A program made the translations under genes and the position numbers. Of a stretch of 64,000 bases of DNA, positions 4,832 to 21,213 are shown piece after piece. The notes under the pieces are model-generated. The model was not told the origin of the DNA. It did no database searches and was given only the letters and a program-made list of their open reading frames with translations. Positions within the stretch are counted from its first letter, which is position 1; each line of letters opens with the position of its first letter. The DNA is from Massilia psychrophila (GTDB lineage Bacteria > Pseudomonadota > Gammaproteobacteria > Burkholderiales > Burkholderiaceae_D): assembly GCF_002760665.1 (NCBI RefSeq), contig NZ_PDOB01000010.1, positions 62,001 to 126,000 of the forward strand. The letters run 5' to 3'.

Positions 4832-5715
4832 ACTACTTTAACAATATGAGCAGCAATTTACGTAATCCCTACAATGCATTCGACGCGGCGCTGCAGTCGG
4901 CGTTCGAATCGAACCTGCTGGCAGCATTACTGGAAGACATCGGTAGCGGCGACGTGACCGGCCTGCTGGTACCAAGCGACACCCGCGCGCGCGCGCGCGT
5001 GATCGTGCGCGAGGACGCGGTGCTGTGCGGCGCGCCGTGGTTCGACGGCGTGATGCAGGCGCTGGACGACAATACGCAAGTCGAATGGAATTATGCTGAA
5101 GGCGACCTGATGCTTGCCGGTAGCGTCGTGTGCAGCATCGACGCGGCGCCGCGCTCGCTGCTGACGGCCGAACGGGCCGCGCTCAATTTCCTCCAACTGA
5201 TGTCGGGCGTGGCGAGCGCGACCCGCCGTTACGTCGACGCCGTGGCCGGTACCAAGGCGGCGATCCTCGACACCCGCAAGACGCTGCCGGGCCTGCGCCA
5301 GGCGCAAAAGTACGCGGTGCGGGTCGGTGGCGGCAAGAACCAGCGCATGGCCTTGTTCGATGGCATCCTGATCAAGGAAAACCATATCGCCGCGGCCGGC
5401 GGCGTTGGCCGCGCACTGGCGGCAGCTGCCGCGTTGAACTCCGGCAAACCGGTGCAGATCGAAGTCGAGACGCTGGCGCAATTGTCGGACGCGCTGGCGG
5501 CCGGCGCCACCTCGGTGCTGCTGGATAATTTCGAGCTCGACGCGATGCGCCAGGCGGTGGCGCTAAATGCCGGGCGCGCGCTGCTGGAAGCTTCCGGCGG
5601 CGTCAGCTTGGACAGCGTGCGGGCAATCGCCGAGACCGGCGTCGACCGCATATCGGTCGGCAGCCTGACCAAGGACGTCAAGGCGACCGACTACTCGCTG
5701 CGGATCGTCGATTAA
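4828..5715 (+). CDS. nadC: Nicotinate-nucleotide pyrophosphorylase (carboxylating)
   Basis: Converts quinolinate and PRPP to nicotinate mononucleotide. The 295-residue protein shows [10 protein letters not shown] near the N-terminus, the phosphate and quinolinate-binding [10 protein letters not shown] and [12 protein letters not shown], the catalytic lysine region LIKENHI, and the C-terminal [23 protein letters not shown] barrel end. It overlaps nadA by 4 bases (ATGA). An alternative Met seven codons in (MSSN) is possible, but the coupled ATG is the better choice. Function is certain from motifs and from pairing with nadA. Confidence 0.96.
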
Positions 5716-5832
5716 GAGGCAACACTGCAGAGGTTGTATTAAAAAACGATCATGGCAGGATCAGTGTCAGCTCAACCGGAAGATTGCCACTCTGCACCGA
5801 CCGCACCACGCTATCACCCTCACCCCCCGACC

Positions 5833-6708
5833 TCACCACGCTCGCCGCTGCCCAGCGCGCAGCGCCGGCAGCAGCCGTTCGGCCGAGCCGTCGATCTTCA
5901 GGCTGAACAAATCGTCGGCGCGGGTGATGCCGAGGTTGATCGCGGCGATCGGTTTATTCATTGCCGCCGCCATCCGGCAAAAGCGGAAGCCTGAGAACAC
6001 CATCAGCGACGAACCGACCACCAGCAGCGCGTCGGCCGCTTCCATCGCCGCCAGGGCCTGCGTGGTGCAGGCGGGGGCGACGCCGTCGCCGAAGAACACG
6101 ACGTTTGGTTTCAGCGTGCCGCCGCAATGGACGCAGTCGGGAACGTGGAATCGGGCCAGCGCATCGGGCTCGAAGTGGGCGTCGCCGTCCGGCGCGGCGC
6201 CAATGTCGGCGCCAGAGGCTGGTATCCCCGGGTTGAGTTCTTCCAGCAAATCTTGCACGAACCGGCGCGAAAAGCCGGCGTGGCAGTCGAGGCAGACGAC
6301 GCCGTGGATATTGCCGTGCAATTCGATGACGTCATGGCTGCCTGCACGCTGGTGCAGGCCGTCGACGTTTTGCGTGATCAAGCCGCCGAGCCTGGCGTCG
6401 GCCTGCAGCTCGGCAATCGCCTGGTGGGCCGGGTTCGGCGCCGCGCGCGCGAGGGCAGGGTAGCCGACCATGCTGCGCGCCCAGTAGCGCTTGCGCACCG
6501 CCTCGAACTTGCGGAACTCCGGCCCTTGTATCGGCGCCTTGCCGCGCCGGATACCGTCGGGGCCGCGGTAATCGGGAATGCCCGACGCGGTGCTGATGCC
6601 GGCGCCGGTCAGCACCAGCACGCGGCGCAGCGGCGCCAGGAAGCGGGTCAATTGATCGACCTGGCCTTGTTCATCCGGGCCGGTCGGGCGCATGTGCATA
6701 TATTGCAT
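5833..6708 (-). CDS. NAD-dependent sirtuin deacylase (class II, SIR2 family)
   Basis: Sirtuins remove acyl groups from lysine using NAD+, releasing nicotinamide and O-acyl-ADP-ribose. The 291-residue form from the ATG at 6708 has GAGISTASGIPDYRGPDG (from 35, the class II signature), TQNVDGLH (112-119), the catalytic His131 in ELHGN, zinc cysteines 139, 142, 192 and 195, and PNVVFFGD. The frame is open to 7005, but upstream residues are not sirtuin-like. ATGs at 6699 and 6693 are alternatives, and none has a strong ribosome site. It lies convergent to nadC and between NAD biosynthesis genes. Whether it acts on protein lysines or mainly as a lipoamidase or ADP-ribosyltransferase, as some class II members do, cannot be told. 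Confidence 0.88.
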   Translation of the reverse strand: MQYMHMRPTGPDEQGQVDQLTRFLAPLRRVLVLTGAGISTASGIPDYRGPDGIRRGKAPIQGPEFRKFEAVRKRYWARSMVGYPALARAAPNPAHQAIAELQADARLGGLITQNVDGLHQRAGSHDVIELHGNIHGVVCLDCHAGFSRRFVQDLLEELNPGIPASGADIGAAPDGDAHFEPDALARFHVPDCVHCGGTLKPNVVFFGDGVAPACTTQALAAMEAADALLVVGSSLMVFSGFRFCRMAAAMNKPIAAINLGITRADDLFSLKIDGSAERLLPALRAGQRRAW

Positions 6709-9744: not shown

Positions 9745-10455
9745 TTACCAGGACATGATCCAGTTGGCGCTCGCTTCGGCGACCTGGGCGCGCCACTTGT
9801 GGCTGGCGAAGGTGTGGCTGGCGCCGCTGACGTCGATCCGCCTGGCGCGCACCTCGTGGCGTGCCATCACGCGGGCAAATTCGGCCGCCATCAGGTCGTC
9901 GCCGGAAAGGATCACCAGCACCTGGCCCGCGTACCTGGCCAGGCTGTCGGCCACTCGCTGCGGCAGCGGCGCGGCGCCGGCGAACACATTGCGCTTGCCG
10001 TCCGGGACCTTGTTCCAGACCGCCACGTCGTCCAGCTGCGTGCGGACCCACGGATTGAGCAGCACCAGGCCGCACACGCGCTCGTCGGTGGCTACGTAGA
10101 GAGCGGCGGCGGCGGCGGCATCGCACAGGCCCCAGATCACCACCTCCCGCAATTCCGGCATCTGCATGAAAAATTCTTTCATGGCAGCGCGGATGTCGTC
10201 GTCGATCCGTTCGAAGCCGCGCGGCTCGCCTTCGCTGTCGCCCATGCCGCGGCGATCGAAGCGCATCACGGGCAGGCCCCGCTGCGACAGGCCGCGCGCC
10301 AGCATGGTGAACTGGCGATGGCTGCCGACCCGGTACTGCGGCCCGCCGGTGACGACCAGCACGCCGCGCGGCAGCGGGCGTTCGGGCACCTCGACAATGC
10401 CGACCAGGCCGCTGCCATTGCAGTTGAACCTGAGCGCGCGTCCCTCGGCATTCAT
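9745..10455 (-). CDS. Exosortase A system-associated hydrolase 1
   Basis: An alpha/beta-hydrolase fold protein of 236 residues matching the exosortase A-associated hydrolase 1 family (TIGR03100-type). Visible are VVTGGPQYRVGSHRQF after strand 1, MRFDRRGMGDSEGE, the nucleophile-elbow equivalent IWGLCDAAAA with Cys111 where a serine normally sits, the acid region ILSGDD and the His region SGASHTFAS. The start overlaps the end of hydrolase 2 (ATGA). These hydrolases always accompany PEP-CTERM/exosortase A exopolysaccharide loci; their substrate is unknown. The frame stays open upstream through hydrolase 2, but that part is a shadow. Confidence 0.85.
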   Translation of the reverse strand: MNAEGRALRFNCNGSGLVGIVEVPERPLPRGVLVVTGGPQYRVGSHRQFTMLARGLSQRGLPVMRFDRRGMGDSEGEPRGFERIDDDIRAAMKEFFMQMPELREVVIWGLCDAAAAAALYVATDERVCGLVLLNPWVRTQLDDVAVWNKVPDGKRNVFAGAAPLPQRVADSLARYAGQVLVILSGDDLMAAEFARVMARHEVRARRIDVSGASHTFASHKWRAQVAEASANWIMSW

Positions 10456-11303
10456 GATGGGGCGGGGGCGAACACGCTGGAGGTGGCGGCCAGCAGGGCC
10501 GGGCATTCGGCAACGTCGTTGATGGCCCAGAACGGCGCGCCGTCGATCGCGTGGAAGTGCAGCGTCACGCCGAGCGGGGTCCAGTGTCGGGCCAGCCGCG
10601 CGGTGCCGGCCGCCAGTTTGCGCGCGGCCCGCGCCCCGCTGGCAAACCAATGCACATCGCAAGGCAGCGGCCTGATGTTGACCGCGTCGCAGGCATCGAT
10701 CCCCTTGACCATCGTGCTGTCGAGTTCGTAGCCGGCCACTTCGAGCCGCCCGCGTATGACCAGTTCCGCGCGCAAGGCGGAAGTGCTGCGCGGCGCCAGG
10801 GGGGCGCCGTGGTCGGTGCCGGCGGCCAGCCGCAGCCGCAGGAACTGGTTGATGCAAGTGCGTCCGTTCATGAACGGCTGCCACAGGATGATGGATTCGA
10901 CCTTGCGGGTGGCGGCGAAATCGAGCGCCAGCAAGCCGCCCAGGCGCACGCCCCACAAGTGCAGCGGCTGTCCGCTGGTGCGTTCGGCCAGCCATTCGGC
11001 CGCCACCGTGAGGTCGCGCTTCCATTGCTCCCAGCGGCCGGAAGAAAATTCGCCGCAACTGTCGCCGCAGCCGAACAAATCCATCTGCAGCACCGCATAA
11101 CCCATCGCGGCAAACGCGCGCGACTGCTGCGCGGCCATGCGACGGCTCCTGTTCATTTCTTCGGCAAACGGGTGCACGTACAGGATGGCGCCGCGCGCCG
11201 GCAGGCCCGGATTGGGCGGGTAATACAGGCAGAAGCGCGTGCCCGGATCGACGTTGAAGAAAAACGGCAAGGCGTGCGGCGTGGCGGGAAGTGGGGCATT
11301 CAT
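10452..11303 (-). CDS. Exosortase A system-associated hydrolase 2
   Basis: An alpha/beta-hydrolase-like protein of 283 residues matching the exosortase A-associated hydrolase 2 family (TIGR03101-type). It has LYVHPFAEEMNRSRRM (about 41-56), MDLFGCGDSCGEF (about 74-86) and LWGVRLGGLLALDF, where Arg120 occupies the nucleophile position, so classical serine-hydrolase chemistry is doubtful. GGAG sits about 12 bases before the ATG. It overlaps the small gene upstream and hydrolase 1 downstream, each by 4 bases, so all three are translationally coupled. An exosortase, epsH or acyl carrier gene is not present in the window. Confidence 0.86.
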   Translation of the reverse strand: MNAPLPATPHALPFFFNVDPGTRFCLYYPPNPGLPARGAILYVHPFAEEMNRSRRMAAQQSRAFAAMGYAVLQMDLFGCGDSCGEFSSGRWEQWKRDLTVAAEWLAERTSGQPLHLWGVRLGGLLALDFAATRKVESIILWQPFMNGRTCINQFLRLRLAAGTDHGAPLAPRSTSALRAELVIRGRLEVAGYELDSTMVKGIDACDAVNIRPLPCDVHWFASGARAARKLAAGTARLARHWTPLGVTLHFHAIDGAPFWAINDVAECPALLAATSSVFAPAPS

Positions 11304-11497: not shown

Positions 11498-12040
11498 ACG
11501 CTTCCTTTTCGCAAAGGTTTGATGATTTTTGTCTATCTATAATATGAATTAGACACCCCTCAAATTGCGCCGTTCTTGATAGCGCACAAGCAAGCGACTC
11601 AGCGGTATTGATGGGTCAGTGTCGATCAGCGAGCGGGGCTTGTTCTCAATCATGGATTCTTTACGCAAGGCATTTTCAAGCAAGCCATGCTCGGCACCGG
11701 CTGCAAAATTGACTCGTAGGCACTCTATAAGCACCGGTACCTGCACCCGGTGCCGGCGCCGTCCGCGATCTACAAGGGACGCAAGCGCGAAGATCTGCCG
11801 GCGCCTGCTGTATGGCGAGTAATGGGATGCGGCGGCGCCCTTGATCCGCATCACGTGTTTCCCGTCCGTCATCTATAGCATGTCCAGCATGTCACGCTAT
11901 TTTTGCTTGCGATCGGTTAGGTCGGGGCGCCGTGGGCGGTGGACGGCGAGCAGCGAGCAGCGCCAGCGTGCTGGATTGACGAACTGAACTCGCGCGCCGC
12001 AAGCTGGCCGCGGCCCTGTCGCACTGAACGAAAGAAGCCG
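11498..12040. other. Intergenic stretch without a convincing gene
   Basis: About 540 bases separate the divergent small peptide gene and the glycosyltransferase. A 107-codon minus-strand frame (11549-11872) and short plus-strand frames exist, but none has a recognisable family, a good ribosome site or sustained coding character. The part nearest 11520-11550 is AT-rich and could hold the promoter of the hydrolase operon. Given the pseudogenes nearby, part of this may be decayed exosortase-locus sequence. Confidence 0.4.
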
Positions 12041-13141
12041 ATGCGTGTAGGCATATTGTCATACCCGATGCTGTTCCAGCGCGACGGCAACCTGCAGGTA
12101 CAGGTGCGCGCGACCGTGGCCGCGCTCAACCGGCTGCCGCCGCTACCGACCGGCGCGCGGATCGAGGCCGAACTGGTCGACCCGTTCCGTTCGCGTCTCG
12201 ACGACTACGACGTCGTGCACGTGTTCGCCGCGGTCAACGGCAACCACCGCATCGTCGAGGAAGCGGCCCGGTTGCAGGTGCCGGTGGTGCTGTCGGCGCT
12301 GGTGGCGCCCGGCTGGAGCCGGTCCGACGGCACCCGCGCGCGGATCGCCGACCGGCTGCTCGGCAACCTGATCGGCGCGGATGTGCAGACCAGCTATTCG
12401 CAGATCCGCCATGCATTGCATTTGGCCAGCCTGGTGGTGGCGCAGGGCGAGCCGGAACGGCAGGCGATCCGCACCGCTTTCCTGATCAATCCGGCCAAGG
12501 TGCGCGTGCTGCCGAACGGGGTCAGTCCCCACTTTTTCGACGCCGAGCCCGCGCTGTTCCGTTCGCGCACCGCGATTCATGGCCGCTTCGCGCTGATGGT
12601 TGGCCCGGTCTCTCCCTACAAAAACCAGCTTGGCATCGCCCAGGTGTTGTCCGAGATGGCACTGCCGTTCGTCGTCATCGGTGAAGCGCTCGAGCGCGAT
12701 ACCGACTACCTGCGCCAGTTGCGCGCTGTGCCCGGCGTGATTTGCATGGGCGCGCTGCGCCAGCAGCAGCGCATGCTGGCCAGCGCCTACGCCGCGGCCA
12801 CCGTGTTCGTGCTGCCCAGCCAGGGCGAGCCGCAGCCTCAGGCGGTGCTCGAAGCGCTGGCAGCCGGCACCCCGGTCATGATGACGGAGGAAAGCGGGAT
12901 CGCGCTGCCGCACAGCGAATTCGCGCTGCGCATGGTGCGTTGGGACGACAGCCGGGCCCAGAAAAGCGCGCTGCTCGACCTGCTCGACGCGCCGCCGCAG
13001 CGCGAGCGGGTGCGCACGCTGGTGCGCTCGCATACCTGGGACAGCGTGGCCCTGCAGCTGGCCGATTGCTACGCCGATGCGCTGGCGCAGCGCGCTCACT
13101 GTCGACTCAGTGCGGGTTTGCCCCAGCAGGCGCCGGTATAG
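12041..13141 (+). CDS. Glycosyltransferase (GT4-like, GT-B fold)
   Basis: A 366-residue protein with a GT-B organisation. The N-terminal acceptor half starts MRVGILSYPMLFQRDGNLQ. The C-terminal half contains a linker-region Asn-Gly (LPNGVSPHFF), the strand LMVGPVSPYKNQLGIAQ and the nucleotide-sugar site SQGEPQPQAVLEALAAGTPVM. ATG 12041 is preceded by AAAGAAG. It is divergent from the exosortase hydrolases and probably belongs to the same exopolysaccharide locus. Donor and acceptor are unknown. Its 3' end overlaps the decayed glycosyltransferase on the other strand. Confidence 0.8.
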   Translation: MRVGILSYPMLFQRDGNLQVQVRATVAALNRLPPLPTGARIEAELVDPFRSRLDDYDVVHVFAAVNGNHRIVEEAARLQVPVVLSALVAPGWSRSDGTRARIADRLLGNLIGADVQTSYSQIRHALHLASLVVAQGEPERQAIRTAFLINPAKVRVLPNGVSPHFFDAEPALFRSRTAIHGRFALMVGPVSPYKNQLGIAQVLSEMALPFVVIGEALERDTDYLRQLRAVPGVICMGALRQQQRMLASAYAAATVFVLPSQGEPQPQAVLEALAAGTPVMMTEESGIALPHSEFALRMVRWDDSRAQKSALLDLLDAPPQRERVRTLVRSHTWDSVALQLADCYADALAQRAHCRLSAGLPQQAPV

Positions 13142-13550
13142 CGGCCCATAGCGTCCCACACTGACCATCGGGCAGCCACGCGCCATCGCCCCGAGCAGGC
13201 GCTGCACGATGACGCCGGCCGCCGCGGTTGCGGTCGGGCTCGACCAGGCCCGGGTGCGGGCCGGTCAGTTGGGTAGTGCGCCAGCCCATTGCGCGCTGCT
13301 GGCGCAGGATCGCCATGGTGCGCCGCGCGTAGGCGCTGTTGCGCGGTGGCGAATGGTCCGGCATGTCGCGGCCATGCGCCCTGATCTGGGCGTGCTGCTC
13401 GCTGCTGCCCCTCAGGCAGACGATGGCATGGCGGTAGCGCTCTGGCGGCATGTGCCGGATCAGGTTGAACAGGCCGTGTTCCAGCGCGCCTGCTTCGAGC
13501 TGGTGGACCAGATGCACTACCAGCCTGGATTGTCCTGCTGTCGCTGCCAT
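13107..13550 (-). pseudogene. Hybrid remnant of two exosortase-associated glycosyltransferases
   Basis: The frame has a good ribosome site (CGGAG 6 bases before the ATG) and begins like the PEP-CTERM/EpsH1 sugar transferase family (TIGR03088-type): LVVHLVHQLEAGALEHGLFN and HMPPERYRHAIVCLRG. Near residue 60 it switches to text typical of the start of the Daro_2409-type exosortase A glycosyltransferase (TIGR04063-type): DHSPPRNSAYARRTMAILR, then GWRTTQLTGPHPG. After about residue 108 coding character moves to another frame (VQRLLGAMARGCPMVSVGRY, about 13140-13220) and ends. Neither enzyme retains its catalytic half. This looks like an in-frame deletion joining two adjacent genes, followed by further decay. 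Confidence 0.65.
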
Positions 13551-13990
13551 GATCTACTCCGCAGTTGAAGGTTGTACTTCGCAAGGAACCGAAGGCGGGT
13601 CAGCGGCGGCAGCCGCCGCGGCGAATCGATAATGACCATGCGCCAGCCCGCGCAGAGGAACGGCTTGAGCATGCTTGGGGTATCGGAGAAGTTCTCTGTG
13701 TTGGGCGGCAAAACCCGCAATGACCTCGGCTGCGCCACAGACTGATGATAAAACCGGCAAGCTTTCGGACTTGCTTAACTGCGGCGCCGTTGATTGGCAT
13801 CAAGAATTTCTTGTCGAACCGTTGCGTCGGCACCGGCCTGGCCGCGAACTTATTCCCGGTGTTGGCCGCGATTTGTCTAAAGGCAAACAATGTTGTCGTC
13901 GCGCGAACTCGACTACGCATGACTCTGTCTCACCCTCACAACGTACGTGCGCCCGATATCGGCGCGGGTCGACAACCGGAGGACGACAAC
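13551..13990. other. Decayed/intergenic region upstream of the FeeM-like gene
   Basis: On the minus strand the frame around 13557-13710 contains a coding-looking stretch (PSMLKPFLCAGWRMVIIDSP), with no identifiable family and no clear start. It may be a third fragment of the exosortase locus. The remainder to 13990 should hold the promoter of the FeeM-like operon. The frame open from 13745 is not supported as coding because the strong ribosome site lies at 13978-13982. Confidence 0.35.
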
Positions 13991-14770
13991 ATGATGCAAG
14001 AAGAATTGCCGATTGCAACGTTCGCGGCGCCCGCCTGCGTGCGCAAATTGTGTACGGGCCAGCGCGCCAGTGGTGCCGCGCCCGCGACCGCGCCGGGAAC
14101 CGGACTCGACGCTGAACTGGAACGACGGCCCGACATGCAGGTTTTCCATATCCGGATGGCTAATTCGACGGGTCGGCGCGAGGAGGCCAGTGTGCTGATC
14201 CGCAAGATGTACGATTGGCGCGGTTACGCTTTCGAGCCGTCGCTGCTCAAGGAACCGAGCAAGATCACGCTGTACGCCGAGACCGGCGGCGCGGTCGTGG
14301 CCACCATGAGCCTGTGGCTGGACAGCCCGATCCTGCTGCCGGCCGACGACAACTTCCGCGACGTGCTCGACCATTTGCGCGCCGAGGGCCGGCGCCTGTG
14401 CGAGCCGTCGCGGCTGGCGATCGACAAGGGCGTGACGAAACGCGTGTTTGCCGCGCTGATCCATATTTCCTACCTGTATGCCCGAGTCGTCCATTGCTGC
14501 TCGGACTACGTGATCGAGGTCAATCCGCGCCACGTGATGTTTTATCAGCGCATGCTCGGCTTCGAAGGCGTTGGCACCGAGCGCCCCTGCACCCGGGTTG
14601 GTGCGCCGGCAGTGCTGCTGCGCCTGCCTTTGGCGCGGATGGGCGACCAGATCCGCACGTGGGGCGGGCGCATGGAGCAGCAAGGCGAGGACCGTTCGTT
14701 CTACTCCTATTTTTTCCCGGCCAGCGACGAGCCGGGCCTCACCGGGCGGCTGCGTGCCGGCCTCAATTGA
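13991..14770 (+). CDS. FeeM-like N-acyl amino acid synthase (GNAT/autoinducer synthase fold)
   Basis: The 259-residue product resembles the FeeM catalytic core, which transfers a long-chain acyl group from acyl carrier protein to an amino acid and is related to homoserine-lactone synthases. Marks are SVLIRKMYDWRGYAFE (about 67-82), AETGGAVVATMSLWLDSP, GRRLCEPSRLAIDKGVTKRV and the acyl-CoA/ACP-binding end VNPRHVMFYQRMLGFEGVGT. A related group is annotated as exosortase-system acyltransferases, which fits the neighbourhood. GGAGG lies 8 bases before ATG 13991. The FAD oxidase follows 11 bases later. The amino acid and acyl chain used are unknown. Confidence 0.72.
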   Translation: MMQEELPIATFAAPACVRKLCTGQRASGAAPATAPGTGLDAELERRPDMQVFHIRMANSTGRREEASVLIRKMYDWRGYAFEPSLLKEPSKITLYAETGGAVVATMSLWLDSPILLPADDNFRDVLDHLRAEGRRLCEPSRLAIDKGVTKRVFAALIHISYLYARVVHCCSDYVIEVNPRHVMFYQRMLGFEGVGTERPCTRVGAPAVLLRLPLARMGDQIRTWGGRMEQQGEDRSFYSYFFPASDEPGLTGRLRAGLN

Positions 14771-14781
14771 AGGAGGGCGCG

Positions 14782-16491
14782 ATGGCTGAACAGGACGTTG
14801 AAAAGGACGCTGACGACGGCGGCCGCGGCGCGGCGCTGCTGCGGGCGATGCGCGCGGCAGTCGGCGCCGCCTACGTGCGGAGCGATGCCGCCACCTTGAA
14901 CCGCTATGCGCGCAGCACTGCCTCGCGCAGCACGCTGGCGCTGGCGGTGGTCAGCCCCGGCTCGCGCGCCGACGTCATCGCGCTGGTGGCGCTGGCGCGC
15001 ACCCACCACACTGCCGTCTATCCGGTCAGCACCGGCAAGAACTGGGGCTACGGCGACGCCTGCGCAGTTACCGATGGCCAGGTGGTGCTCGATCTGTCGC
15101 GCATGAACCGCATCATCTTGGTCGATCCCGAGCTGGCGTACGCGGTAATCGAGCCCGGCGTCACCCAGCAACAGCTGGCCGACTACCTGCACGCGCGCGG
15201 CATTGCGCTGCAGATCGACTGCACCGGCGCCGGCCCCGACACCAGCTTCATCGGCAATATTCTCGAGCGCGGCTTCGGCCATTCGCCGTACGGCAACCGG
15301 CTGCAGTATATCGCCGGGATGCAGGTGGTGCTCGCCAGCGGCGAGGTACTCGACACCGGCTTCGGCCATTATCCCAACGCGCGCACCACCCACCTGTTCC
15401 CGTACGGCGTCGGGCCTTTCCTCGACGGCTTGTTCAGCCAGTCCAACTTCGGCGTCGTGACCCAGCTGGGCATCTGGCTGATGCCCAAGGCGGAATGCGT
15501 CAACCATTTTTTATGCATGGTGCCGGCGCATGCCGACATCGGCCCCGTCGTCGATGCGCTGCGCCCGCTGCGGCTGGACGGAACCTTGCGCAGTATTGTC
15601 CATATCGGCAACGACTTGCGGGTCATCTCGGGCGGCATCACCTTTCCGCGCGACCAGGCCGCCGGCCAGGCGGCGCTGCCGGAGGACCTGCGCCTGCAGC
15701 TGCGGGCCAGGGCGGGCGCCGGTGCATGGACCGTGTCGGGTGCCTTGTACGGCAGCAAACTGCAAGTGGCGGCGGCGCGCGCCGCGCTGCGCCGGGCGCT
15801 GCGCCCCACAAAGGCAAGGTCGACATTTCTTACGCCGCAAACACTGAGCCGCGGCGCGCTGTTGGGACGGTTGCTCGGCATTGTCGGCTTGGGCGCCCCC
15901 CTGCGCGCCAAGGTGGGGCTGGGCGAAGCGCTGTTTGCCATCAACCGCGGCGAGCCGAACGGGCGCTTCCTGGCCGGGGCTTACTGGCGCCGGCGCGGCG
16001 GCCTGCCGGCCGGTTTCCCGCAACAGGCCAACCCCGCTGTCGATAACTGCGGCCTGCTGTGGGTGTCGCCGATCCTGCCGATGCGCGGCGCCGACGTGCT
16101 GGCCCTGCATGCGCTGGCGGCGCCGATCTTCGCCAACTACGGCTTCGACCTGTTTGTCACGTTCAGCATGATCAACGAGCGCGCGCTGGGCGGCGTGCTG
16201 ACGGTGGCGTACGACAAGGAAGACCCGGCCGAGACCGAGCGCGCCAAGGGGTGCTACCGCGCGCTGTTCGATGCCGTGATGACAGCGGGCTACATTCCCT
16301 ACCGGGTCGGCATCCAGTCGATGGCAGGGCTCGACCCGCACGGCGACGTATTCTGGCGCGTCGTCAGCCGCATCAAGGCGGCCCTGGACCCGGACGGCAT
16401 CATCGCGCCGGGGCGCTACGAGCCGGCGCGGGCCGGGGCGCGGGTATGTCAATTTCCCCAACAAGGAAGAGGGCCGGCGCCGCGTGCATAA
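14782..16491 (+). CDS. FAD-linked oxidase (vanillyl-alcohol oxidase-type fold)
   Basis: A 569-residue FAD_binding_4 flavoprotein. The PP-loop region HHTAVYPVSTGKNWGYGD (about 75-92), the FAD-contacting DCTGAGPDTSFIGNILERGFG and the C-terminal DPDGIIAPGRYEP are typical of the VAO/4-cresol dehydrogenase group. No signal peptide is seen. AAGGAGGGCGCG precedes ATG 14782. The gene is 11 bases after the FeeM-like gene, so both are probably one operon. A role oxidising an N-acyl amino acid is inference from this pairing only. Confidence 0.82.
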   Translation: MAEQDVEKDADDGGRGAALLRAMRAAVGAAYVRSDAATLNRYARSTASRSTLALAVVSPGSRADVIALVALARTHHTAVYPVSTGKNWGYGDACAVTDGQVVLDLSRMNRIILVDPELAYAVIEPGVTQQQLADYLHARGIALQIDCTGAGPDTSFIGNILERGFGHSPYGNRLQYIAGMQVVLASGEVLDTGFGHYPNARTTHLFPYGVGPFLDGLFSQSNFGVVTQLGIWLMPKAECVNHFLCMVPAHADIGPVVDALRPLRLDGTLRSIVHIGNDLRVISGGITFPRDQAAGQAALPEDLRLQLRARAGAGAWTVSGALYGSKLQVAAARAALRRALRPTKARSTFLTPQTLSRGALLGRLLGIVGLGAPLRAKVGLGEALFAINRGEPNGRFLAGAYWRRRGGLPAGFPQQANPAVDNCGLLWVSPILPMRGADVLALHALAAPIFANYGFDLFVTFSMINERALGGVLTVAYDKEDPAETERAKGCYRALFDAVMTAGYIPYRVGIQSMAGLDPHGDVFWRVVSRIKAALDPDGIIAPGRYEPARAGARVCQFPQQGRGPAPRA

Positions 16492-16532: not shown

Positions 16533-17963
16533 TTAGGGCGGATTACGCCGTGTCGGCAACACCCGTATCACGCCGCGAAAATCCACCGTGTGCAGCGACA
16601 CCGGGCGGCGCCAGATGCGGGCGACATACTCGACTACCCGCTCGGCCTGCGCCAGGTCGAGCCCGCGGCCGTCGCGCAGGTGATCGTGGCGCAGCTCGAG
16701 GCAGCCGTCGGCACCGACGCTGGACACGGTAACGCAGGGCGCGCCAAAGTTGAACTTTGGCGCCAGGATTGCTTCACGGATCGCGTGCAGGTCGCGGCTG
16801 ACGATGCTCGTGTCGCCATCCTTGCGGGCTTGGTAGACAAACAGGTCGAGTTGCTCGGCCAGCTCGCTGTCGAGGTAGTTGCGGATGAACCCGCAATCGT
16901 CTTCCTCGCGGCAAATCTGGCGCGCTTTTTCGATGCCGTGGCGCTCGATGATGTGTTCCCACATCGAAAAGCCCAGGTGATACGGATTTAGCGACAGCGC
17001 CAGCTGCTGGCCGCTGGCGAACGGGCGCACCACGTCGGAGTGGGCCTTGATGGCCGACAGGTACAGGTCCGGCGGCAGGAAGTGCGCTTCGCGCAGCAGG
17101 CGCGCATGCCAGTACGAAGCCCAGCCTTCGTTCATGATCTGGCAGGCGTGGATCGGCTGAAAATAGAAGGCTTCCTCGCGCACCGCCAGCAAGATGTCGC
17201 GCTCCCAGTCTGCCATCTCAGGAGCGTACTGGGCCAGGAACCACAGCAGGTCGGGTTCCGGCCGCGGCGGCAAAGGCATACGCTGCGCAGCGCCCTGGGC
17301 TGCGTGCGGGGATGCGCACTGAGCTGCCGGGTGGTTGGCCGGCACGTCGGCTTCACCCGCCAGGCGCGCGTAGCGATCGCCGAACCGGTCCGCTGGCGCT
17401 GCCGATTTCAACCCGACGAATTCGGCGTAGCGGTCGCGGTGCAGCGGCTGGTCGACGTCGATGTGGGTTTCCAGCGCCAACGCCGCGTCGAGCACCGCTT
17501 CGACCCGTTGCTGCCCGTGGGCGGCCAGCGCGCGCTCGAGCCGATTGGAGCGTGCCGCGCTTTGTTCGAGGATGTTGCTGCCAGCCATCGCGATGAAACG
17601 GGTGAACAGGGCGTTGTTCTTGGCAAAGTCGGCGTGACCGAGCACGTGGGCGGTGACCAGCGTGTTTTCGGCCAGTGAATTTTGTTCGAGCATGAAGGCG
17701 CGGCAAGGGTCGCCCGGGAACATGACTTCGAAAATTTTCGAGTGGCCCATGTGCTGACGCACTAGATGGTGAAGGTAGCTCACCCCGAACGACCAGTGGC
17801 GCATGCGAACCGGCAGTCCGTACACGGCGATCTCGAGCATGAAACTGGCCGGCACCAGGTCGAAATGGACTGGGTAAAAATCCATGCCGAGTTCGATTGC
17901 CAGCGCCTCCAGCCGGGCGGTGTAGTCCGCCAGCTCGCCGTTGCCGCCGCGGCAGGCGCTCAT
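16533..17963 (-). CDS. spoVR: SpoVR family protein
   Basis: A 476-residue member of the SpoVR/YcgB family, cytoplasmic proteins encoded with PrkA kinase and YeaH in stationary-phase or stress operons; the biochemical activity is unknown. Conserved blocks include GMDFYPVHFDLVPASFMLEI, MRHWSFGVSYLH, the His/Glu-rich EGWASYWHARLL and the C-terminal LELRHDHLRDGRGL. It overlaps yeaH by 4 bases and is the last gene of the operon. Residues 190-225 form a variable linker. It is convergent with the FAD oxidase, 41 bases away. Confidence 0.93.
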   Translation of the reverse strand: MSACRGGNGELADYTARLEALAIELGMDFYPVHFDLVPASFMLEIAVYGLPVRMRHWSFGVSYLHHLVRQHMGHSKIFEVMFPGDPCRAFMLEQNSLAENTLVTAHVLGHADFAKNNALFTRFIAMAGSNILEQSAARSNRLERALAAHGQQRVEAVLDAALALETHIDVDQPLHRDRYAEFVGLKSAAPADRFGDRYARLAGEADVPANHPAAQCASPHAAQGAAQRMPLPPRPEPDLLWFLAQYAPEMADWERDILLAVREEAFYFQPIHACQIMNEGWASYWHARLLREAHFLPPDLYLSAIKAHSDVVRPFASGQQLALSLNPYHLGFSMWEHIIERHGIEKARQICREEDDCGFIRNYLDSELAEQLDLFVYQARKDGDTSIVSRDLHAIREAILAPKFNFGAPCVTVSSVGADGCLELRHDHLRDGRGLDLAQAERVVEYVARIWRRPVSLHTVDFRGVIRVLPTRRNPP

Positions 17964-19168
17964 CGGGCTGGCCCCCCCGGCGCATCGACGGCAACGGCGC
18001 CCGCTTCCTGCACAAAAAACTTGCGCAGCGCGCGCCAGACATCGTCAGGATTGGCCAGCACGCTGCTGGCAATCGGCAGGCCGCGCCGCTGCAGTTCGCC
18101 GCACAGCCGCCGCATCTCGGTGTCGACAGTACGCGGCATGCCGGGCAGGGTTTCGATGTAGCCGATGTAGTTCAGCATGCCGCCCAGTTCGGTCAACGCG
18201 GCGCTGGCGGGGCCGCGGTCTTCGGTAAAGTTCTCGCCGTCGGAAGCGTAGAACAGGTAGACGTTATCAATTGCCGCGTCGAGTTCGGCGCGCACCAGTT
18301 CCAGCGTGAGCCGCATCGCGCTCGAGGCGATGGTGCCGCCGCTGCCGGACACCTGGAAAAATTCGGCTTCGGTAAATTCCCACGCCCGCGTGGTGTGGGC
18401 GATGAAGCGGGTCGCCACCTTGGCATACTTGCGGCGCAGGCCATGGAGCGCGAAAAAAAAGAAGGACTTCGCCAGTTTGCGCTCGAGCTCGGTCATGCTG
18501 GCCGAAACGTCGATGACGAAAAACACTACCGCCGAAGTGCTGGGGCGCGATCGCGCGACGACCTGGCGAAACCGCAGGTCCCCGTTGACATACGGCACCG
18601 GGTTCTCTTGCGCGGCACGTCGCTTGATCGCCTCCTTGGCGGTGCGGCGCCGGTCCAGGCGCGACGGCGCGCCGTGCTTGTCCAAGCCTTCGCGCACCAG
18701 TTCCGGGGTATCGACGCGGGTGTTGGGCTTCGGTTTCAGGTCAGGGAGCTTGAGTTCCTCCCAGATCCAGTCCATCACTTCGTCGACCGAGAATTCAAGC
18801 AGCAGGCTCACTTCGCCGTCCGCACTGCCACCCTTGCCGCCATCGCCCCCCTTGCCCGGTTCGGCCGCGCCGGCGCGCGCCGGGTCAAGGGTCTGCAGGA
18901 CGTCGCCGGGCTGGCCCCGGCCTTGGCCGACGCCGGCCCTGGCACGGCTGTCGGCCAGTCGGAAACGCGCGTGCTCGAGCATGCGCAGCGGCACCTGCAC
19001 GGTGCGCGTGGCCGAGCCGGTAATCAGGTCCGGGCCGGCGATCAGCTCGGGCAGGTGGTCGTGCACCGCCTCGCGCACCTTGCTATTGTGGCGCAGCAAG
19101 TCGCGCGCTCCGCGCGAGAACAGGTCGTACCAGGCCGTGTCGATCGTTGCCGTCACCCGCTCCTCCAT
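17960..19168 (-). CDS. yeaH: YeaH/YhbH family protein with VWA domain (DUF444)
   Basis: A 402-residue DUF444 protein. A Gly-rich linker (about 98-118) separates an N-terminal region from a C-terminal von Willebrand A-like domain whose metal-site motif is DVSASM (220-225), with FYASDGENF as another MIDAS element. Family members act with PrkA kinase in stress signalling. It lies 26 bases after prkA and overlaps spoVR. Confidence 0.92.
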   Translation of the reverse strand: MEERVTATIDTAWYDLFSRGARDLLRHNSKVREAVHDHLPELIAGPDLITGSATRTVQVPLRMLEHARFRLADSRARAGVGQGRGQPGDVLQTLDPARAGAAEPGKGGDGGKGGSADGEVSLLLEFSVDEVMDWIWEELKLPDLKPKPNTRVDTPELVREGLDKHGAPSRLDRRRTAKEAIKRRAAQENPVPYVNGDLRFRQVVARSRPSTSAVVFFVIDVSASMTELERKLAKSFFFFALHGLRRKYAKVATRFIAHTTRAWEFTEAEFFQVSGSGGTIASSAMRLTLELVRAELDAAIDNVYLFYASDGENFTEDRGPASAALTELGGMLNYIGYIETLPGMPRTVDTEMRRLCGELQRRGLPIASSVLANPDDVWRALRKFFVQEAGAVAVDAPGGPAR

Positions 19169-19194
19169 ACAGGACAGTAAAACCAGTAACCCTG

Positions 19195-21213
19195 TTACTC
19201 TTGCGCCAGCAAGGTCGTCACGTAGTTCAGCGCTTCGCGCGCGCTGTGGCTGTCGTAACCGTATTCGTCGACCAGCCGTTTTTCCACCGCCGACACCTTG
19301 GTACGCACGTCATCGTCGGGGCGCCTGGCGGAACTGACCAGCCGCAACACGTCGCGGCGCTGTTCGAACAGGTAATGCTGCACCGCATCGTTGAGCTGCA
19401 AATGGCTGTCGAGGCCGAATTTGAGTCCGCGCTTGTAGGCGCCCATTGCCTTGCGCACGACTTCCTGGCGGAACGAGTGCTTGCCCGATTCAGAGACATG
19501 GATTTTTTCTTCGACCGCGCGCAGGAAGCGCTCGTCAGGGCGCCGCTCCTCGTTGGTGATCGGGTCCGTGACCTGGCGGTTGTCGAGCGTCGCCTCGACC
19601 TCGTCGAGGTATTTGTCGAGCAAGTCTTGCGCTTCCTGTTCGAACGACACGAACAGCGCCTTGTGGACGTCTTCCTTGACCCAACGGTTGTAGAAATCCT
19701 TGCGCGTGACGATCAGGTAATCGACCCACTTGCGCTTTTTCTTCGGGTCGATCCGGGCGTCGTTCTCGATGCCGTCCTTGAGCGCGAGCAGCACGTCCAT
19801 CGTCGACAGGCTTTTCTGGTCCGACTGGATGATCGCGTTCGACAAGGCGTTGATGACGAAGCGCGGCGACACCCCGGCCAGGCCCTCGTCGGGCGCCTTT
19901 TCCCTTTGCTTGAGGCGGCGCGCGTCGGCGCGCGTCATGCCTTCGACTTCTTCGCCGGCGTGGGTGCGCACCTTGCGCACCTGTTCGATTTCCTTGTCGT
20001 CGCTGTCCTGGATGCGGCTGAGGATGGCGAACACCGCCGCCGCGTGCAGCACGTGGGGATCGAGGTGGACATCGCGGAACGCCGGCGCCGCCGACGCGAT
20101 GAGTTTGTGGTAAATGCGCGCTTCCTGCTTGTAGTCGAGGGTGTACGGCACCTGGATGATGACCATGCGGTCGAGCAGGGCTTCGTTTTCGCTCTCCTGC
20201 AGGAACTTGCGGAACTCGGCCAGGTTGGTGTGGGCGACGATGGTTTCGTCGAGGTAGATCAGCGGGAAGCGCGACACCTTGACGTTTTTCTCCTGCGTCA
20301 ACGTCAGCAGAAGGTAAAGAAATTCGCGCTTGACCTTGAGGATCTCGATCATTTCGAGCACGCCGCGGCTTGCCGCGTACACCGCGCCCGACCACGACCA
20401 GGCGCGCGGGTCGCCCTCGTCGCCGTATTCGGCCACCTTCGACAGGTCGACCGAGCCGACCAGGTCGGCCAGGTCGGCGGTGGTGGGGTCGTGCGGCGCA
20501 TAGGTGCCGATGCCGCTGCGCCCGGCCTCCGAGATGAACAGGCGTTCGACCGGCATCTGCATGAAGTCGCCGCCGAAATCGTCTTCGAGGCGGACCCGGC
20601 AGTGCGGGCATAATTGGCCGGCGATGTCGATGCCGTAGGTGCCGCGGCAACTGGCGCGCATGCTGTGCGGCACCAGGTGCAAGGGCGATTCGTGCACCGG
20701 GCAGCCGGCGATGGCGTACTGCGCGCCGTCGTCGGTGTAGCTGTAATCTTCGAGCCCGCGCTTGAGCAGGATCACCAGGGTCGACTTGCCGCCCGACGGC
20801 GGCCCGAGCAGCAGCAACAGGCGCCTGCCCACTTCGGAACCGGCGCTGGCGGCCTTGAAATAATCGATGACCCGGTCGATGGCCTCGTCGATGCCGAACA
20901 GCTCGTCCTCGAACAGCTTGCAGTGGTAGTGACCGTCATTGTCTTGGATAAAGGTAGCGCGAATCATGTCCCAGATGTACTGGTGCGAGCTGCGCGCGAC
21001 GCGCTCGGGCGCCTTGGCCAGGATTTCCTGCATGAAGGCTGAAAACTGCCCCGACCAGTGACGAGCCCGGTGCTGCCTGGCATGCAGGCCGAGGCTTTCG
21101 ATAAAGCTGTCTTGCCGGTCCGATGGACAAGATTGAAGATCCTCGCTTGACGACGTCACGGTTCCTCCAGTATCGAATGAAAGTGACGACAGACCGCGGC
21201 CGCGGTCACTCAT
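19195..21213 (-). CDS. prkA: PrkA family serine protein kinase
   Basis: A 672-residue PrkA protein, AAA-type ATPase plus kinase, the first gene of prkA-yeaH-spoVR. It shows Walker A GPPSGGKS (137-144), the CPHC pair in AGQLCPHCRVRLEDDF, FPLIYLDETIVAHTN, and the PrkA C-terminal domain (VRKAMGAYKRGLKFGLDSHL). The start used gives about 30 residues of low-complexity leader before the conserved part; later starts are possible. PrkA is linked to starvation and stress responses in enterobacteria and Bacillus; targets here are unknown. Confidence 0.94.
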   Translation of the reverse strand: MSDRGRGLSSLSFDTGGTVTSSSEDLQSCPSDRQDSFIESLGLHARQHRARHWSGQFSAFMQEILAKAPERVARSSHQYIWDMIRATFIQDNDGHYHCKLFEDELFGIDEAIDRVIDYFKAASAGSEVGRRLLLLLGPPSGGKSTLVILLKRGLEDYSYTDDGAQYAIAGCPVHESPLHLVPHSMRASCRGTYGIDIAGQLCPHCRVRLEDDFGGDFMQMPVERLFISEAGRSGIGTYAPHDPTTADLADLVGSVDLSKVAEYGDEGDPRAWSWSGAVYAASRGVLEMIEILKVKREFLYLLLTLTQEKNVKVSRFPLIYLDETIVAHTNLAEFRKFLQESENEALLDRMVIIQVPYTLDYKQEARIYHKLIASAAPAFRDVHLDPHVLHAAAVFAILSRIQDSDDKEIEQVRKVRTHAGEEVEGMTRADARRLKQREKAPDEGLAGVSPRFVINALSNAIIQSDQKSLSTMDVLLALKDGIENDARIDPKKKRKWVDYLIVTRKDFYNRWVKEDVHKALFVSFEQEAQDLLDKYLDEVEATLDNRQVTDPITNEERRPDERFLRAVEEKIHVSESGKHSFRQEVVRKAMGAYKRGLKFGLDSHLQLNDAVQHYLFEQRRDVLRLVSSARRPDDDVRTKVSAVEKRLVDEYGYDSHSAREALNYVTTLLAQE

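Follow-up and report, generated by a model that had tools for sequence, protein, structure and literature searches.

The 64,000-nucleotide stretch of Massilia psychrophila DNA analyzed here (NCBI RefSeq assembly GCF_002760665.1, contig NZ_PDOB01000010.1, positions 62,001 to 126,000 of the forward strand; hereafter the window) carries two adjacent genes that are best read as a two-gene lipid-tailoring operon. The first encodes a FeeM-family N-acyl amino acid synthase, and the second encodes a flavoprotein with the vanillyl alcohol oxidase/p-cresol methylhydroxylase (VAO/PCMH) fold, of the 4-phenol-oxidizing type. This oxidase represents a separate, apparently undescribed branch of the VAO family that is often found beside acyltransferase genes in several bacterial phyla. 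We propose, at somewhat better than an even chance, that the FeeM protein makes N-acyl-tyrosine and that the oxidase takes the tyrosine side chain through a quinone methide to an enamide. The features of the operon are listed below by window position.

13978–13982, plus strand: ribosome-binding site GGAGG of the FeeM gene, read directly from the sequence, 8 nt before the start codon
13991–14770, plus strand: FeeM-family N-acyl amino acid synthase, 259 amino acids (PF21926; 2g0b by sequence and fold; own-genome match G000:C10)
14771–14777, plus strand: ribosome-binding site AGGAGGG of the oxidase gene, within the 11-nt gap, read directly from the sequence
14782–16491, plus strand: long-cap VAO/PCMH-type flavoprotein, 569 amino acids, predicted acyl-tyrosine side-chain oxidase
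15049–15051, plus strand: Tyr90 codon of the phenolate triad (Tyr95 in PCMH, Tyr91 in eugenol oxidase, EUGO; from alignments, EUGO residues from PMC11148156)
15814–15975, plus strand: cap-insert region, residues 345–398 (alignment length count and structure model)
16300–16305, plus strand: Tyr507-Arg508 codons of the phenolate triad (Tyr473-Arg474 in PCMH, Tyr471-Arg472 in EUGO; from alignments)

The open reading frames run from an ATG at 13991 to a TGA ending at 14770 for FeeM, and from an ATG at 14782 to 16491 for the oxidase, leaving 11 nt between the genes (14771–14781). An alternative in-frame ATG lies upstream of the FeeM start, at 13745. We favor the 13991 start because a motif resembling (E/D)-x-PIA(T/S)F directly after it is common to the closest FeeM relatives, whose protein starts were assigned by script. 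The FeeM protein matches PF21926 with 172.1 bits (cut-off 27) over profile positions 2–157 of 158, and among sequences of solved structures it matches FeeM itself (2g0b, E 2e-10). Its structure model (mean predicted local distance difference test score, pLDDT, 88.0) retrieves six 2g0b chains from rank 1 onward, the best with E 2.3e-16, and template modeling scores of 0.80–0.86 by target place the protein in the FeeM/GNAT fold. By family and fold, the first gene product is therefore a FeeM-family synthase, and it is predicted to acylate an amino acid using acyl-acyl carrier protein (acyl-ACP).

The second gene product matches PF01565 (FAD_binding_4) with 102.2 bits against a cut-off of 26.4. 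Its best match among solved-structure sequences is PCMH (1dii, E 9e-81), followed by VAO and EUGO, and identity to these VAO/PCMH structure matches is approximately 31–33%. The structure model (pLDDT 90.3) superimposes on 1dii with Z 42.7 over 501 residues at a root-mean-square deviation of 1.8, and EUGO (5fxd, Z 42.2) and nsVAO (9ffk, Z 42.1) are tied with 1dii by the rule of the fold tool. In alignments, Tyr90, Tyr507 and Arg508 occupy the columns of the phenolate-binding triad of PCMH (Tyr95, Tyr473 and Arg474) and of EUGO (Tyr91, Tyr471 and Arg472; residue numbers from PMC11148156). All 25 sequences of the oxidase alignment (A1) have Arg508, and Tyr90 and Tyr507 are each conserved in at least 90%. 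The closest oxidase from a named organism is that of Massilia eurypsychrophila (L074), which is 84% identical over 476 columns.

The flavin site departs from the described subgroups. According to PMC7617285, oxidases of this family combine a His-FAD (flavin adenine dinucleotide) anchor with Asp or Glu near the flavin N5 atom, and dehydrogenases combine a Tyr-FAD anchor with Pro or Ile. The oxidase-type pair is absent from the alignment, where Leu425 and Gly149 stand at the corresponding columns. The dehydrogenase-type pair is also absent, with Ala400 at the Tyr384 column (Tyr401 is adjacent) and Ala150 at the Pro column, by alignment only; the N5 neighbors read off the alignment are thus Gly149 and Ala150. 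FAD is probably bound non-covalently, as in nsVAO, which is a working member of the family with non-covalent FAD (PMC7617285). Residues 345–398 of the cap domain number 54, compared to 34–35 in the PCMH, VAD and nsVAO references, corresponding to an insert of about 20 residues. This region is modeled as two helices (352–366 and 372–388) with modest hydrophobic moments of 0.31 and 0.18. We dropped the idea of strongly amphipathic helices on these values, and contact between the insert and lipid is therefore a proposal.

The initial annotation of this DNA had described a FeeM-like N-acyltransferase and a VAO-type FAD oxidase in a two-gene operon, and the family matches, folds, 11-nt gap and two strong ribosome-binding sites all agree with that description. 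To it we add the 4-phenol-oxidizing type with an intact triad, the separate and mostly long-cap clade, and the occurrence of FeeM without the oxidase. The initial annotation had also named separation of the genes in other genomes as grounds for refuting the pair, and the pair withstood this check. We searched 294 Oxalobacteraceae genomes for oxidase matches with E 1e-30 or better and found them in 47, of which 39 carry an orthologue 57–80% identical to that of the window. In all 37 orthologues with upstream sequence, the window genome included, a FeeM gene immediately precedes the oxidase gene on the same strand; two orthologue genomes (G091 and G070; loci L008 and L033) were left out because their contigs end upstream. 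More diverged oxidases, with 32–41% identity, occur at 19 places in the sample, and 14 of these have FeeM within 6 kb. Nine were found by locus analysis (L051, L052, L053, L058, L059, L060, L062, L064 and L065), and five by comparison of match coordinates (G147, G110, G191, G202 and G180:C210). FeeM was not found within 6 kb at L061, L063, L066 and L067, the last with less than 2 kb on one side, and L068 is cut by a contig end. Several of the 14 diverged pairs are convergent rather than co-directional (e.g., L060, L062 and L064). The association has therefore formed in more than one arrangement and is not just one inherited locus.

The same association was seen in a control set of 200 evenly drawn Pseudomonadota genomes, that of the window among them. 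The oxidase model (E 1e-40 or better) identified 12 oxidase places in nine genomes. Five are long-cap oxidases (53–54 residues) with neither His nor Tyr at the FAD-anchor columns, and all five lie beside an acyltransferase, which is FeeM at L198 (the window) and exosortase-type, by the A4 model introduced below, at L199, L200, L201 and L203. The other seven are ordinary short-cap phenol oxidases, one with the PCMH Tyr anchor and six with the VAO/EUGO His, and none is beside a FeeM-type or exosortase-type acyltransferase. The Fisher probability of this division is 1/792, to be read with the limits that the five long-cap oxidases are not independent (the window is included and L199–L201 are from one genus) and that the flanks covered about 1.5 kb. 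Together with the 37 linked orthologues, this division leads us to reject a chance neighborhood.

Linkage also extends outside the family. From a scan of named genomes we took the 80 best oxidase relatives (more exist) and searched their neighborhoods with a family-only FeeM model and a distance limit of 6 kb. FeeM was present in 23 of the 80, comprising 10 of 10 with Oxalobacteraceae titles and 13 of the 70 others. Clustering of neighboring proteins revealed a second acyltransferase group beside the oxidases (alignment A4). One scanned member is the PEP-CTERM/exosortase-associated acyltransferase TIGR03694 (246.7 bits, cut-off 111.95), and the group is related to FeeM by profile comparison (E 9.7e-8). 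FeeM or A4 is found within 6 kb of 22 of the 70 relatives outside the Oxalobacteraceae, with the A4 part of this count made after the fact because its model was built from these same loci. At 11 further loci, all with Acidobacteria-type titles (L095, L096, L098, L099, L104, L105, L106, L108, L109, L111 and L113), a protein of approximately 290 amino acids (cluster A3) is encoded near the oxidase, often directly upstream. A scan of one member gave no match in Pfam (at 0.001) or in NCBIfam (at 0.0001). This protein is possibly another acyltransferase; its profile match to FeeM falls short of significance (hhalign probability 1.4%, E 0.038), and it was kept out of the count of 22. We also counted FeeM in the genomes, 47 in all, of the 48 relatives with no FeeM or A4 nearby. 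FeeM exceeds the cut-off in 24 of these 47 genomes, compared to 28 of 200 in the Pseudomonadota sample, a comparison that is suggestive only because the two sets differ in phyla. The Planctomycetota metagenome-assembled genome that holds L151 (G339) has 23 FeeM-family matches.

A quick tree of 109 oxidase rows places 104 of them in one clade with full support (Shimodaira–Hasegawa-like approximate likelihood ratio test, 100), and every acyltransferase-linked oxidase in the tree falls within it. Rows covering fewer than 470 of the 538 columns were excluded, as were near-duplicate family loci (L049, L050, L054–L056, L065, L067, L069–L073 and L110). Outside the clade are PCMH, VAD, nsVAO and two PCMH-like family proteins (L063 and L066); L149_2948 has a long branch. 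The clade is mostly long-cap, with short cap regions of 13–34 residues in L061, L117, L127, L142, L147 and L153. The distinct clade and the cap insert disfavor an ordinary lignin-phenol enzyme. Member L142 adjoins a nonribosomal peptide synthetase (NRPS) with condensation, adenylation and carrier domains, and L153 adjoins a tryptophan-halogenase-family gene. These contexts presumably resemble that of chondrochloren, and they fit clade enzymes whose acylated tyrosine substrates come from other suppliers. Two oxidases that share a subclade, L118 and L122, have GMC oxidoreductase genes nearby, and no FeeM-type gene occurs within 6 kb of either.

The proposed pathway would begin with the FeeM enzyme taking a long acyl chain from acyl-ACP and attaching it to the L-tyrosine amino group. 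The pairing of a phenol-reading oxidase, its triad intact, with an amino acid acylase suggests tyrosine as the amino acid and N-acyl-tyrosine as the substrate. The tyrosine ring would then be held as a phenolate by Tyr90, Tyr507 and Arg508, and the probably non-covalent FAD would take a hydride from the benzylic carbon to give a p-quinone methide. With its alpha-carboxylate free, this intermediate would most likely lose CO2 to yield N-acyl-4-(2-aminovinyl)phenol, an enamide. The reduced flavin would probably be reoxidized by O2, since inspection by eye shows no signal peptide and the genes on either side encode FeeM and SpoVR and no cytochrome. The helical insert of the cap may shape an entry for the long acyl chain. 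There is precedent for this chemistry. FeeG is reported to convert N-acyl-L-tyrosines to N-acyl-4-[(E)-2-aminovinyl]phenols (PMC8762209, citing Brady et al. 2002), and the chondrochloren enzyme is reported to be an FAD-dependent oxidative decarboxylase that acts through a quinone methide losing CO2 (PMC3039461). These precedents, taken with the contexts of L142 and L153, make the enamide our first choice of product and a dehydrotyrosine the second. The FeeG precedent also supports, by analogy, the oxidative tailoring toward an enamide suggested in the initial annotation. Its view of the product as a lipid signal is unsupported, no result here bearing on signaling, and the pathway is not wholly unknown as it had supposed, given that oxidative decarboxylation of N-acyl-tyrosine is already in print. 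The chemistry thus has precedent, and it is the oxidase subfamily and its linkage that appear to be new.

Several known systems resemble the operon in part. The fee cluster from environmental DNA encodes a FeeM that shares Pfam family and fold with the window protein, together with FeeG, which is reported to oxidatively decarboxylate N-acyl-L-tyrosine. That cluster is reportedly larger than two genes, whereas the window unit has two and lies inside an XrtA/PEP-CTERM locus in several relatives; FeeG is compared here by its reported reaction, not by sequence. The chondrochloren enzyme, which we take to be CndG, likewise uses an FAD-dependent quinone-methide route on an acylated tyrosine, as proposed for the window oxidase, but its substrate is an NRPS product rather than a FeeM product, and this likeness also rests on reported reaction instead of sequence. 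PCMH, eugenol oxidase and nsVAO share the fold (Z ~42) and the Tyr/Tyr/Arg triad. The window oxidase differs from them in its ~31–33% identity, the lack of His or Tyr at the anchor columns, Gly149/Ala150, the insert of about 20 residues and the acyltransferase neighbor. In the tyzABC and oxzAB clusters, and in those proposed for kyonggic and thalassotalic acids, an acyltransferase likewise stands next to a flavoenzyme that acts on N-acyl-tyrosine. There, a flavoenzyme from the nitroreductase superfamily is accompanied by ThiF, whereas the window operon has neither and the genome carries its FeeM-ThiF pair elsewhere. Finally, the exosortase-linked N-acyl amino acid synthases of Craig et al. 2011 (cited in PMC4897644) are, like those of the present loci, FeeM-type genes linked to PEP-CTERM/exosortase loci. 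We found no report joining FeeM to a VAO-type oxidase among the papers listed by searches of one open-license library, not all of which were opened; key older papers lie outside that library.

The FeeM-ThiF pair bears on the second choice of product. We consider it possible, though unlikely, that the oxidase introduces a double bond into N-acyl-tyrosine with no loss of CO2, giving N-acyl-2,3-dehydrotyrosine, as a VAO-type counterpart of the nitroreductase-type TyzC. Two Massilia products, kyonggic acids 4 and 5, are built on a 2,3-dehydrotyrosine core (PMC12479983), and TyzC desaturates N-acyl-tyrosine in the tyz pathway (PMC10404671), with the same step proposed for kyonggic acids. The window genome has a second FeeM on contig C19, with PrsT before it and a ThiF-family gene directly after it. 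This FeeM-ThiF unit (L034, 9024–10772) is like a tyrazolone or kyonggic acid module with no adjoining nitroreductase; the two nitroreductase-family matches of the genome are on contigs C12 and C2. A second FeeM was also sampled from 20 other oxidase-bearing genomes, chosen because such a match exists, and ThiF lies within about 3 kb of it in 20 of 21 genomes, the window genome counted (the exception is L173). Cells with a second FeeM therefore usually carry both branches. However, FeeM-ThiF pairs also occur in 13 of 20 sampled family genomes with no oxidase match, so ThiF does not need the oxidase, and a quinone methide with a free alpha-carboxylate is reported to lose CO2 (PMC3039461). A TyzC/ThiF-type operon at the window locus itself was rejected, as the pair is flanked by a glycosyltransferase remnant and SpoVR, with no ThiF or nitroreductase.

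Two further explanations are each improbable. The oxidase could be a catabolic or detoxifying phenol oxidase that stands beside FeeM by happenstance, given that its fold and triad are those of lignin-phenol oxidases and that FeeM orthologues are also found without it. Against this stand its distinct clade, acyltransferase linkage in different arrangements and phyla, and the confinement of linkage in the Pseudomonadota sample to the long-cap form. To a similarly small degree, we credit action on N-acyl-tyramine or N-acyl-DOPA (3,4-dihydroxyphenylalanine), or hydroxylation of the beta carbon of N-acyl-tyrosine by addition of water to the quinone methide. In PCMH-type hydroxylases the quinone methide normally takes up water, and the amino acid choice of the FeeM protein is a prediction; yet a Pfam scan of ten neighboring proteins identified no amino acid decarboxylase or ring hydroxylase.

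Other observations weigh against oxidation of a FeeM-made N-acyl-tyrosine to the enamide, or limit how widely it would apply. Within 6 kb, 37 of the 70 relatives outside the Oxalobacteraceae have no FeeM, A4 or A3, although some of these loci are cut by contig ends, and 23 of the 47 genomes counted above lack any FeeM over the cut-off; the clade may therefore have several substrates. Insert and linkage are imperfectly matched, in that L117 has a short cap (34 residues) and yet FeeM at 4.4 kb. The Asp/Glu position of the oxidase group is Gly149 here, and rates and mechanism may therefore differ. Lastly, 7 of the 20 oxidase-free genomes keep a FeeM 61–68% identical to that of the window, alone (L178, L180, L181, L183, L186, L188 and L189), with no oxidase or ThiF within about 5 kb. 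Judged by gene size and order only, the surroundings of these seven resemble the XrtA locus. The seven rule against an obligate FeeM-oxidase partnership, so that FeeM is the core and the oxidase an add-on rather than a required partner.

In several relatives (e.g., L036, L038 and L040), the pair lies among genes of the exosortase A (XrtA) system, with PrsT (TIGR02917) on one side and a PEP-CTERM protein (EDSAP-1), chain-length and tyrosine-kinase genes on the other (matched families TIGR02917, NF041538, TIGR03007 and TIGR03018). XrtA-type neighbors are missing around the pair at L037, a close relative. The same PEP-CTERM cluster protein occurs at 5 of the 70 oxidase loci from outside the Oxalobacteraceae. 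Among nine scanned proteins of the window, the only XrtA family over its cut-off is the following.

10452–11303, minus strand: exosortase A (XrtA) system-associated hydrolase 2, nearby context (TIGR03101, 265 bits, cut-off 202.75)

The window genome has two exosortase matches, and the one listed is on contig C19, as is the second FeeM. Because the operon is found amid XrtA/PEP-CTERM and exopolysaccharide genes in several relatives, its product may serve the cell surface. More broadly, and at slightly less than an even chance, the cross-phylum VAO/PCMH clade (mostly long-cap, with no covalent FAD anchor and an intact triad) may be dedicated to oxidizing N-acyl-tyrosines supplied by FeeM, TIGR03694 acyltransferases or NRPS modules. 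In the Oxalobacteraceae it would form a tailoring branch parallel to FeeM-ThiF in the same cell and tied to PEP-CTERM loci. At L114, a small PEP-CTERM-motif protein (5360–5869) is encoded directly upstream of an Acidobacteria oxidase, a further link between the clade and the PEP-CTERM system.

For the kyonggic, thalassotalic and stieleriacine families of N-acyl-tyrosine lipids, most of the tailoring genes are described as still to be resolved (PMC12479983), and what N-acyl amino acids do physiologically is said to be still unclear (PMC4897644). A two-gene operon with a predicted product, in a genus with known producers, makes part of the tailoring question directly testable. If the proposal is correct, it would give VAO-type oxidases a role in lipid biosynthesis in addition to phenol breakdown, and provide a sequence signature for finding such operons.

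Near the operon, the glycosyltransferase remnant (13242–13592, minus strand) aligns only to residues 36–152 of a 438-residue homologue at L037, with 47.9% identity. The remainder of that gene is missing, and the remnant lies beside a convergent glycosyltransferase gene (11939–13141). On the other side, SpoVR, YhbH-like and PrkA genes adjoin the pair in a row (16533–21213, minus strand), and this trio is found in the same order near the pair in several relatives (e.g., L036, L037, L038 and L040).

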